A stretch of 64,000 bases of DNA from Catenulispora sp. EB89 (GTDB lineage: Bacteria > Actinomycetota > Actinomycetes > Streptomycetales > Catenulisporaceae), in NCBI RefSeq assembly GCF_041261445.1, contig NZ_JBGCCU010000002.1, positions 620,001 through 684,000 of the forward strand, given 5' to 3'. Made by a program: the position numbers and the translations under genes. Positions 44,424-47,485 of this stretch are shown piece by piece. Numbering within the stretch: the stretch's first letter is position 1; each line of letters begins with the position of its first letter. The notes beneath the pieces were generated by a model. It did no database searches and was not told the DNA's origin. It was given only the letters and a program-made list of their open reading frames with translations.

Positions 44424-45320
44424 ATGCCGACCATCGCCGCGGTCACCACCGCGTTCCATCCCGACGAACGCCTGACCGCGGTCGTGGAGGCGGCGCTGAA
44501 GAGCTGCTCGCGGGTGGTCGTGGTGGACAACACGCCGGGTGACGGGCCGTTCCTGAGCGACACGCTGCGTGATCGCGACGGCGTCACCGTGCTGCGCGAC
44601 GGGCGCAACCGAGGACTCGCGGGCGCACTGAACGCGGGCCTGGACGAGCTGAAGAGCATCGCGGCCCCGTCATCGGAGGCCCCGGACCTGGTGCTGTTCC
44701 TCGACCAGGACTCCGTCCTCACCGAAGACCTGGTCACCGGCCTCGCCGAGCACCTGACCGACCCGACCGTCGGCATCGCGGCACCGGCGCCCTGGGACGA
44801 GGAGCAGGGACGCTACTACGAACCGGGCACCGCGAACGGCCCGGACATCGCCGAACGCGAGGCGGTCATCACCTCCGGCATGCTGGTCCGCCGCACCGTC
44901 CTCACCGAAGTAGGACCATTCCGCGCCGAGTTCTTCGTCGACCACGTCGACAACGACTTCTGCCTCCGCGTCCGCACCGCCGGCTACCGCATCCTCCGCG
45001 ACAAGCGCTACAAACTGGCCCACAGCCTCGGCCAACGAAACCAGCACAAGCTCGCCGGCGTCTCGGTGGCGTCGTCGCGGCACCCGACATGGCGGCTGTA
45101 CTGGATCGCCCGCAACGGCACGGTGCTGATCAAGGAGCACCGCAAGGACGCCCCGGTCTGGAGCCGGAACACCGCGCTGTACCTGGTGTGGTGGTTCGCA
45201 CTGCGGACCGCGATCGAGGCACCGCGCGGCCCGCGAGCGATGGCGATGCTGCGCGGGTTCCGGGACGGGGCGCGGGGGCGGACGAGTCGGCGGTATTTGC
45301 CGCCGGGGGCTGAGATTTAG
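44424..45320 (+). CDS. GT2 glycosyltransferase, rhamnosyltransferase-like
   Basis: A 298-residue GT2 enzyme of the type annotated as rhamnosyltransferase (RfbN-like). It begins I-A-A-V-T-T-A-F-H-P-D-E-R-L. V-V-V-D-N-T-P then precedes the metal motif L-F-L-D-Q-D-S-V-L, and T-S-G-M-L-V-R-R and the F-V-D-H-V-D-N-D-F-C-L-R-V acceptor-side motif come after. dTDP-L-rhamnose is made by the rfb genes in this same region, which supports rhamnose as donor. A clear paralog lies on the other side of the palindrome region (46571-47485), facing it. ATG 44424 is preferred over GTG 44397 because the conserved start and the promoter both point to it. Confidence 0.87.
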   Translation: MPTIAAVTTAFHPDERLTAVVEAALKSCSRVVVVDNTPGDGPFLSDTLRDRDGVTVLRDGRNRGLAGALNAGLDELKSIAAPSSEAPDLVLFLDQDSVLTEDLVTGLAEHLTDPTVGIAAPAPWDEEQGRYYEPGTANGPDIAEREAVITSGMLVRRTVLTEVGPFRAEFFVDHVDNDFCLRVRTAGYRILRDKRYKLAHSLGQRNQHKLAGVSVASSRHPTWRLYWIARNGTVLIKEHRKDAPVWSRNTALYLVWWFALRTAIEAPRGPRAMAMLRGFRDGARGRTSRRYLPPGAEI

Positions 45321-45707
45321 GCCAGCGTGCGGCTGGGCTGGGGGGTGCTGGCGATTTTTGGGCGCTCCTGCTTGGTGTGTGGGTGTGGGTGGCTGGGGTG
45401 CGGTGGGTGCGTCAGGTGCGGTTTGTTGGTGGGGTTTTAAGGGCCTTTTACGGCTTCGCCTAAGGTTTGGTGACCTCGCTGGGGGACGCAGTTCGGTGGT
45501 GCCCCGCAGGTTGCGCTGGCGGCCGGCGGTGTTGCTGGGCACGACCGCGCACAGGTCCGAGTCACTGCGCACACGTCGGGTGGGCGGCTGGCGGCCGCGT
45601 GTGGTGGGCACCTGAAGTCAAAAGCAGGCGCCTCCGGCGGGGGCACTCGAGACTCTGAGGGATCCCCAACCCCCCGCCTCGGCGGCGGTCCGAGTGTTGG
45701 TCGCGAA

Positions 45708-45869
45708 GTCCCGGATCCCTCGTCGCTGACGTCGCCCTAAAGGGAACCATCCCGGCCTGGCGGGGTAAAGCCGCATCACACGCTGCTGTGGTCCAGCCTC
45801 GTCCGGCTTGACCCCGCCAGTCCGGGCTGGTTGTGCAAGCACCGCCGACAGCGACGAGGGATCCGGGAC
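45708..45869. repeat. Left nested hairpin (H1) of the large palindrome
   Basis: Bases 45708-45728 are the exact reverse complement of 45849-45869. Further in, 45751-45773 pairs nearly perfectly with about 45804-45826. The unpaired top contains GCTGCTGTGG. Confidence 0.8.
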
Positions 45870-45975
45870 AACCCCACTGTGGTGTGGACGGGGTCCACTC
45901 GGGTGCGTGCACGTGCGGGTGGTGACGTGGCGTGCCCAAGACGAGGGAATCCTTCCCACAGGCGGGGTTGTCCCG
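45864..45975. repeat. Central hairpin (H2) of the large palindrome
   Basis: CGGGACAACCCC (45864-45875) pairs with GGGGTTGTCCCG (45964-45975). The arms overlap those of H1 and H3, so H2 and H1/H3 folding would compete. GCACGTGC lies near the centre. Confidence 0.75.
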
Positions 45976-46125
45976 GGTTCCCCGTCGCGTCGGCGGGCGT
46001 AGCCAAGCTGACCGGGCCGGTGGTGTCAAGTCGCACGAAACCACACCACAGCAGCAGGGGTCCGACTTGATACCACCGGACCGGTCTGCTTCCGTGAGGC
46101 GACGATGCGACGGGGAACCCGGGAC
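45970..46125. repeat. Right nested hairpin (H3) of the large palindrome
   Basis: Bases 45970-45988 are the exact reverse complement of 46107-46125. An inner stem pairs about 46009-46033 with 46063-46087. H3 is a reverse-complement-related copy of H1. Confidence 0.8.
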
Positions 46126-46463
46126 ACAGGCGACCACAAGCAGTGTCCGGCAGCAGACAGCGCGACCCCCCCCCTCCCCGGAGCGAGTGCCGCTCGCCGC
46201 GCAGGCGCCGCCGGAGGCCCTGTCTTTGACTTTCAGGCACCCACCAAACGCGGCCGCCAGCCGCCCACCTGACGTGTGCGCAGTGACTCGAACCCGCGCG
46301 CGGTCGTGCACACGAACAACCGCCAGCCGCCAGCGCAACCAGCGCGGCACCACCGAACTGCGCCACCCAGCGGATCCTTCTTAAAGCCCTGCGAAGCCGT
46401 AAAAAGCTCCTAAAACCCACCAACAAACCGCACCCGACGCACCCACCACACCAGCAGCGCCGA

Positions 46464-46502
46464 TTTCTACGACTCCGCCTAAGCCTGGTGACCTCGCGGG
46501 GA
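46464..46502 (+). repeat. Extra direct copy of part of the palindrome arm
   Basis: The stretch TTTCTACGACTCCGCCTAAG and the next 19 bases match 45446-45484 in direct orientation with a few substitutions, including GGTGACCTCGC. It lies just outside the right arm. Confidence 0.65.
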
Positions 46503-46570
46503 ATGAGCCCGAGTCCCTGCGCGCACTTTTGCTCTCGCGCGTCGCGGCAGCCGATCCGGCCGCCCCGCCC

Positions 46571-47485
46571 CTACCGCCGCCGCCGCTTCCCGCCGTCGGC
46601 GGTAGGTGCGGTCGTCAGCTCCGCGCCCTGCGGCAGGTACCGCATGCTGTACTTGCGCGTCATCGCATCGCGGGCGCCGCGCAGTACAGCGCCGGCGTGG
46701 GCTCGGCGGTCGTCTTCGAATGCCACCGCCTGGACGGCGGCGCGGCCTAGGTAGAGGGCTGCGGTGACGGCCCAGGCCGGGGAGAAGCGGCCTTGTTCGC
46801 GGATGGTGATCAAGCCGTTGCGGAGCTGCCAGTAGTCGCGCCAGGGGGCTTTGTGCGTGACGGCTACGTGCATGCCCAGGAAGGCGTGGGTGCGGCGTTC
46901 GCCGATGGAGTGCGGGAGCTTCAGGCGCTTGTCCTGGATGATGCGGGCTCCGGTGCGGCGGACGCGGAGGGAATACTCCAGGTCGGCGTAGTCGACGAAG
47001 AAGTCTTCGCGGAATTCGCCGACGCGCTCCAGGAGGGTGCGGCGGATCAGCATGCCGGAGGTGATGGAGATGGCGCGTTCTGACACGTCTTCGTGGCGGC
47101 CGGAGAAGGTCTCGTAGAAGCGCCCATGGACGACGTCCCAGGGTGCCGGGGTCGCGATGCCGATGGTGGGGTCCGTGAGGTGCTCGGCCAGGCGGGGGAT
47201 CACGTCGGGGGCCAGGACCGAGTCCTGGTCCAGGAAGATCACCGCCTCGGTGGTGCGGGACAGGCGGGAGACGCCGAGGTTCAGGGCGTGGGCCAGGCCG
47301 CGGTTCACGCCGGGGCGCAGGACCGTGAGGGTGCCGGCGGCGGCGATCTTGTCCGCGGTGGACGGCGCTCCGTCGGGCGTGTTGTCCACGACCACGATCT
47401 CGGCGCAGGACTCCTGCACGGAGTCGACCACGGCGAGCAGGCGCTCGTCCGGGTGGTAGGCCGTCACGACGGCGGCGATTCTCAC
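46571..47485 (-). CDS. GT2 glycosyltransferase, rhamnosyltransferase-like
   Basis: A 304-residue paralog of the glycosyltransferase at 44424-45320, in the opposite orientation. The two align from I-A-A-V-V-T-A-Y-H-P-D-E-R-L through V-V-V-D-N-T-P, L-D-Q-D-S-V-L, A-E-H-L-T-D-P-T-I-G-I-A, T-S-G-M-L-I-R-R and the final R-Y-L-P-Q-G-A-E. The L-D-Q-D motif is the expected nucleotide-sugar/metal site. A basic Lys/Arg tail ends the protein. GTG 47485 is chosen because GAGAGG precedes it and the conserved domain starts at once. It lies 11 bp after the acyltransferase gene and is the last gene of a minus-strand operon beginning with the flippase at 53761. Confidence 0.87.
   Translation of the reverse strand: MRIAAVVTAYHPDERLLAVVDSVQESCAEIVVVDNTPDGAPSTADKIAAAGTLTVLRPGVNRGLAHALNLGVSRLSRTTEAVIFLDQDSVLAPDVIPRLAEHLTDPTIGIATPAPWDVVHGRFYETFSGRHEDVSERAISITSGMLIRRTLLERVGEFREDFFVDYADLEYSLRVRRTGARIIQDKRLKLPHSIGERRTHAFLGMHVAVTHKAPWRDYWQLRNGLITIREQGRFSPAWAVTAALYLGRAAVQAVAFEDDRRAHAGAVLRGARDAMTRKYSMRYLPQGAELTTAPTADGGKRRRR

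Follow-up and report, generated by a model that had tools for sequence, protein, structure and literature searches.

The question raised by this locus is what a nested palindrome of kilobase size represents, and how it came to lie between two convergent glycosyltransferase genes. Long palindromes are usually thought to be unstable in bacteria. The window, i.e., the whole stretch of 64,000 nucleotides that was analysed, belongs to Catenulispora sp. EB89 (genome G000 below); G004 is a relative with a single-contig genome. An earlier, sequence-only reading had offered several interpretations, among them a structural switch, a mobile or multicopy element and the scar of an inverted duplication. 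Sequence comparisons make it very probable that the palindrome is one copy of a non-autonomous DNA transposon of about 1.1 kb, protein-free, folding back on itself, with ISL3-like ends, and a giant relative of the MITEs.

The palindrome is real and far exceeds chance. Both pairs of 17-bp anchors which the sequence-only reading had placed in the outer arms are exact reverse complements on recomputation. The self-complementarity score of 45321-46570 is 468; when 58 other stretches of 1250 bp from the window were scored, the mean was 121 and the highest value 178. The DNA fold of 45708-46126 has a z of -11.8 (0 of 100 shuffles were equally good). The arm search returned three outer arm pairs, 45397-45437/46412-46452 (93%), 45477-45530/46319-46372 (91%) and 45530-45640/46208-46318 (84%). 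Inside these arms, the end pairs of hairpins H1 (45708-45734/45843-45869) and H3 (45969-45995/46100-46126) match at 93% each, and the H2 pair (45851-45875/45964-45988) at 88%. In the single-strand fold the outer arms form one long stem that bears three hairpins, H1, a central hairpin and H3 (Table 1). H1 and H3 look like an old inverted duplication within the element. The palindrome does occupy 45402..46449, where it had been located; the element proper is slightly longer, from about 45361 to 46461.

Table 1. Features of the palindromic element and its flanks (positions within the window).
Feature	Position	Strand	Basis or remark
GT2 rhamnosyltransferase-like glycosyltransferase, convergent flank gene	44424..45320	+	PF00535 37 bits; TIGR01556 under cut-off
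Left target duplication copy, presumed, 8 bp, GATTTTTG	45353..45360	.	abuts left terminal repeat
Left terminal inverted repeat, GGCGCTCCTGCTTGGTGTGTGGGTG	45361..45385	+	family pattern with 1 mismatch (G000:C2:665361-665385)
Left outer arm, 5' strand of long stem	45397..45640	+	pairs with 46208-46452
Hairpin H1, side hairpins at conserved internal junction	45708..45869	+	fold and covariation
Central hairpin, loop segment inverted in some copies	45870..45969	+	fold, copy comparison
Hairpin H3, diverged reverse-complement relative of H1	45970..46126	+	fold and covariation
Right outer arm, 3' strand of long stem	46208..46452	+	arm search, fold
Right terminal repeat, decayed, CACACCAGCAGCGCC, shortened, GCGCC at end	46447..46461	-	comparison with intact right ends
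Right target duplication copy, presumed, GATTTCTA	46462..46469	.	6/8 identical to 45353-45360
Arm remnant of older copy, probable	46465..46501	+	31/38 columns equal to the element's own left arm
GT2 glycosyltransferase paralogue, convergent flank gene	46571..47485	-	50% identical to left gene

The junction had been described as the meeting point of two converging glycan operons. This holds for the right side, which is operon-like. On the left a single plus-strand glycosyltransferase gene converges on the element; our own gene caller assigned the two genes before it to the opposite strand. Since the convergent flank genes are 50% identical paralogues, the junction itself may have originated long ago by inverted duplication of a gene, with the element settling there later.

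The suggestion of a mobile or multicopy palindromic element proved right: copies are numerous in the genus and are accompanied by terminal repeats, target duplications and an empty site. The genome-wide search for further copies, which the sequence-only reading had proposed, found many in G000 and its relatives. G000 has at least 11 near-full copies (84-100% identity) plus many partial ones, a lower bound as 40 of 203 candidates were scored; G004 has at least about 40 element clusters (hand-grouped, 40 of 163 candidates scored). Matches were found in each of the other nine Catenulispora genomes. Of 31 genomes from outside the genus, 13 gave no match, and those in the remaining 18 were short and weak, the best having an E of 4e-5. 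In the named GTDB collection the core pattern was present on eight contigs of Catenulispora rubra DSM 44948 and on three further, unrelated contigs, by appearance chance matches. The plasmid collection yielded no match to the element, the phage collection a 32-bp match in two phage records and nothing more, and the viral contigs no instance of the exact terminal-repeat pattern. In Rfam no match exceeded the gathering score; two microRNA-precursor models alone appeared, far under their cut-offs.

Miniature derivatives which keep both ends are also present, e.g., 61 bp at L184 4302-4362 in G004 and 260 bp at L175 3359-3618 in G000. The inner modules (n = 26) measure 410-434 nt and their lengths fall in all three residues modulo 3; as judged on these modules the element has no conserved coding capacity, and open reading frames across it are mechanical. 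When 26 copies including that of the window were compared, the centre had the same orientation in 17 and was inverted in 8, one being not assignable; relative to the window it is inverted in 7 of 11 G000 copies. The inverted central loops suggest that the palindrome flips or recombines at its tip.

Some copies contain foreign sequence. L178 and L182, at the ends of G000 contigs C34 and C18, carry the same sequence, AGCTTGCCGTTTAACC..., at the same arm site, possibly a further site-specific insertion. In G004, L101 (4682-5881) and L105 (3343-4713) have genes within or between palindrome pieces; the end of the L101 protein presumably resembles an IS110-type transposase. These genes suggest that other insertion sequences may target the palindrome.

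When the 11 full copies are aligned most sides end in a terminal inverted repeat of about 25 bp, GGCGCYNNTGNYTNATGTGTGGGTG, with an element end of the form GGCGC...GTGTGGGTG; L129 lacks one of its ends. A search that tolerated up to 2 mismatches found this pattern at 42 places in G000 and at 15 in G004, and the reversed pattern, searched in both genomes at the same tolerance, gave 0 matches. Directly outside the repeats are AT-rich octamers. An exact 8-bp target duplication is present in 5 of 20 copies with both ends (tabulated in 21 rows, L126 being entered twice, the first time probably with a chance left end): ACAAAATG twice, CATTTTGT twice and ACATATCG once. CATTTTGT and ACAAAATG are one octamer in two orientations, which accounts for four of the five. 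Over the whole set the similarity of left and right flanks has a summed score of 75, compared with a mean of -41 and a maximum of 25 in 2000 permutations. The window copy is not part of this set, as its right end fails a 3-mismatch search. Its left repeat deviates at 1 position, the right repeat is decayed, and the flanking octamers GATTTTTG and GATTTCTA agree at 6 of 8 positions; by its decayed right end and target duplication it would be an older copy.

An empty site was identified for L131. In G000 CATTTTGT stands on either side of the element; the orthologous site in G001, with flanks 96% identical, reads ...GGCATTTTGTTAGG... and has the octamer once, uninterrupted. At this junction the element is absent in 6 of 6 relatives with both flanks aligned; in two more one flank was matched. 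A second junction, L136, has a half copy in G000 and a form of about 380 bp in G004; by reading, an arm remnant is left in G001 and none in G002, G006 and G008, while G005 and G009 were matched by one flank alone and G003 and G007 are outside the tally. The family thus has the terminal inverted repeats and the target-site duplication with empty site that mark a transposon.

The ends and the 8-bp AT-rich duplications suggested the ISL3 family, and five genomes of the genus were therefore searched with PF01610. G004 holds an insertion sequence of 1403 bp, L186, with the ends GGCGCCCCTGACTTATCCGTGGGTTGT and GGCGCCTCTGACTCATCCGTGGGTTGT and with CATTTTTC on either side. Its 435-aa protein scores 266.7 bits with NF033550 (cut-off 180) and 239 bits with PF01610, and is by Pfam and NCBIfam assignment an ISL3 transposase. 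L186 deviates from the end pattern of the palindromic element at 1 position and is flanked by a duplication of the same type. Of seven palindrome copies compared with L186, three (L114, L108, L133) match its end at 79-88% over 24 bp; in the other four, which include the window copy, the match is shorter or missing. The interior of L186 gave nothing better than E 0.03 against these seven copies. Because the likeness of the ends is partial and no interior is shared, the element cannot have arisen from L186 by simple deletion. G009 has a transposase fragment, 88% identical to the L186 protein, at a distance of 18 nt from an end that fits the element pattern with 0 mismatches. Close relatives of this transposase are full-length in G004 alone, with fragments in G002 and G009; G001 and G009 also contain full-length relatives at 54-55%, whose ends differ from those of the element. 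In G000 nothing related to the L186 transposase was found at E <= 1e-10. The three ISL3 matches that G000 does have are more distant, and near them no end of the element was found (best 3 mismatches). Thus, the G000 copies are without a visible partner in the assembly. L187 and L188, other ISL3 elements of the genus, have the ends GGCTCTTCGC beside T- or A-rich flanks. Since L186 combines similar ends with the same kind of duplication, we infer that an ISL3-type transposase acting in trans is the likely mobiliser. The palindromic element itself is not a member of the ISL3 family, being non-coding and without an ISL3 transposase gene; L186 alone qualifies.

Where the element lands is far from uniform. 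According to our own gene caller the 71 element-bearing gene pairs in G000 and G004 comprise 45 convergent, 24 codirectional and 2 divergent pairs, compared with 19, 133 and 58 in 210 neighbouring control pairs. These controls are biased against convergence because the neighbour of a convergent pair cannot be convergent; the convergent share to be expected is more safely judged from the divergent share, 58/210, which is itself not unbiased. Of the codirectional copies 21 of 24 are closer to the 3' end of the upstream gene. An adjacent hairpin of -10 kcal/mol or better was found at 37 of 54 T-rich ends versus 18 of 36 A-rich ends (Mann-Whitney p = 0.003; from the 111 ends, 21 that were rich in neither T nor A had been set aside). 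The shuffled control, 9 of 54, is a weak one, its flanks being padded with A. That T-rich ends tend to follow a hairpin is therefore suggestive only. The clearest insertions into terminator-like T-tracts are L133, L144, L160, L211 and the insertion sequence L186 itself.

T-tracts of this kind are also found in the element's arms. Ends were located inside the arm of an older copy in 7 of 109 cases, compared with 2 of 109 when positions 100 nt further out served as the control. The window copy is, to judge from the arm-like sequence at its right flank, probably such a nested insertion into the T-tract of an older copy. Several G000 copies sit in a second repeated motif, GGCATTTTGTTAGGG...TCGCCCCTTATA. 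The second dispersed motif GGCATTTTGTTAGGGnnnnnTCGCCCCTTATA (L228, L230 and L232-L238 in G000; L226, L229 and L231 in G004; L227 in G009) resembles a promoter or else marks the terminus of a different repeat, and the palindromic element has landed in it repeatedly.

The fold is conserved between species. H1 and H3 are each a long hairpin broken by a junction with two small side hairpins, and at these internal junctions many bases are invariant or nearly so. In an alignment of 26 inner modules from G000, G009, G007 and G001 (modules matched over less than about 380 nt were dropped, hence G004 is absent) the local three-hairpin consensus has 98.9% of cells paired, and 24 of 118 pairs show changes on both sides versus 7.7 in shuffled alignments, with 0 of 500 shuffles as high; here and below the counts tally sequences, not events. 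With G004 added, and matches below 88% of the H1 or H3 length dropped, H1 (44 distinct sequences, five genomes) is 98.8% paired with 13 both-side pairs versus 7.7, and H3 (36 distinct sequences, five genomes) 98.9% paired with 20 versus 8.1. Within G000 the picture is different. Among its 11 copies the outer stem is without covariation (90.6% paired versus 90.9% shuffled) and covariation in H1 (98.2 versus 97.1 shuffled) and H3 (97.7 versus 97.3) is slight; arms of the same copy pair at 0.873 and arms of different copies at 0.881. In G009 (8 copies) own arms pair better, 0.910 versus 0.885. Covariation across species with little within G000 indicates that the structure is kept at the level of the spreading lineage and not visibly in each resident copy.

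These data bear directly on the structural switch proposed initially, H1 and H3 against H2, and on a variant with an extended H1:H3 duplex as the competitor. The predicted RNA energies are compatible with such a competition, -274.0 for the three-hairpin form versus -259.9 for the extended form, only about 14 kcal/mol apart, and the extended fold as a whole exceeds the shuffles with 49 cells changed on both sides versus 31.1, much of it in the central helices. Yet the extended fold is 88.9% paired with 24 of 158 pairs changed on both sides versus 18.1 shuffled, behind the local fold, although this comparison leans to the local fold, which is the consensus of the same alignment, the extended one being derived from the window sequence. 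Further, in the H1:H3 cross-helices 1-8 both-side changes affect 9 of 125 pairs, and in the longest helix 0 of 34. H1 and H3 thus vary as separate hairpins and far less as partners, which argues against the switch; we regard it as very improbable. A role in the service of the host is somewhat less remote, yet unlikely. As a mobile 3'-end module the element would serve, by way of giant hairpins in the transcripts, to insulate convergent genes, to halt read-through or to shield the 3' ends of mRNAs. The strong preference for convergent junctions and for the 3' ends of genes would agree with this, as would the compensatory changes that H1 and H3 show in five genomes. Safe-site insertion accounts for the positions without selection on the copies, however, and the weak covariation and indifferent arm pairing within G000, just as the relatives devoid of the element at L131 (6 of 6) and, by reading, at L136 (at least 3), do not speak for a host function. 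The base of the stem is also the wrong way round: T-runs are at its 5' side and A-runs at its 3' side, the reverse of the order in an intrinsic terminator. The terminator scan reported 2 terminator-like sites versus 1.0 expected, and one of these falls on the target site, external to the element, where a weak stem (45337-45352) precedes the T-tract 45353..45360. An insulator or 3'-end protector role is possible but unsupported.

An assembly artefact, or a local scar of an inverted duplication, has practically no probability left for the element as a whole. In G000 (70 contigs) 19 contig ends lie within 500 bp of an element copy or terminal repeat; the repeat thus probably breaks assemblies, and copy numbers in drafts are probably underestimates. 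Complete copies are, nonetheless, found inside contigs at dozens of separate loci, many in the single-contig G004, with site-specific flanks, and one site is empty with its target octamer unduplicated. Equally improbable are REPIN-type palindromes moved by a Y1 (RAYT/IS200-IS605) transposase. BIME/REP and REPIN palindromes are extragenic, form hairpins and are often located at gene 3' ends, and the palindromes described here are dispersed and extragenic, too. The element is, however, far longer and has terminal inverted repeats with 8-bp target duplications, and PF01797 had 0 matches in G000, the same profile being positive in 5 of 14 control genomes. For want of a Y1 transposase in G000, REPIN/RAYT membership was ruled out. 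What accommodates these observations is the non-autonomous transposon with ISL3-like ends.

Among known systems the MITEs are closest. Like them the element encodes no protein, has terminal inverted repeats, a target duplication and IS-like ends, is multicopy, intergenic and hairpin-forming, and has short derivatives. Unlike them it has a nested three-hairpin plan with compensatory changes and no interior in common with an insertion sequence. With about 1.1 kb and 68.5% G+C it is not a strict MITE by the size and composition given in a review, typically under 500 bp and AT-rich (PMC10969869). With the ISL3 family (the IS204/IS1001/IS1096/IS1165 group) the element shares terminal repeats similar to those of L186 and the 8-bp AT-rich target duplications; it differs in having no transposase gene and an interior of unrelated palindromic DNA. 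Eukaryotic fold-back DNA transposons, e.g., Galileo and Tetris of Drosophila, have very long inverted arms and are often protein-free; unlike these the present element is bacterial, has ISL3-like ends and contains inner hairpins which fold independently. A kilobase-sized fold-back element with three hairpins and ISL3-like ends is apparently undescribed; the matches listed in our literature search, as far as their text was accessible, include no paper on a palindromic mobile element of Catenulispora, which does not prove absence from print.

The MITE-like working of the element is well supported, and a selfish, non-autonomous element is the best reading. An ISL3 transposase, supplied in trans, would bind the ends of about 25 bp. 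The targets of insertion would be T-rich octamers, in many cases within T-tracts that follow a terminator-like hairpin, and little damage would be done there; as such targeting is nearly harmless, copies would pile up between convergent genes. The hairpins would be kept in the spreading lineage, either for transposition, for replication of the palindrome or via exchange between arms. In the window the site would probably have been the T-tract of a still older copy behind the glycosyltransferase gene. Among the observations that count against this explanation is that the conserved internal junctions of H1 and H3 exceed what a passenger needs. We tentatively consider, as a possibility with rather less in its favour than against it, that the H1/H3 core is a functional nucleic-acid structure, used in transposition or in transcripts, of a fold-back class homing to terminator T-tracts.

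Evidently, the genomes of this genus carry dozens of long palindromes despite the supposed instability of such structures. The copies with exact duplications, the empty site and the candidate transposase of G004 provide material for finding out how a long fold-back element is copied and moved. The element probably explains some of the breaks in draft assemblies. The family further opens the questions why its ends land in terminator-like T-tracts and whether giant hairpins affect the transcription of convergent genes. Should the H1/H3 core be functional, the element would be a mobile structured element and not a passive passenger.
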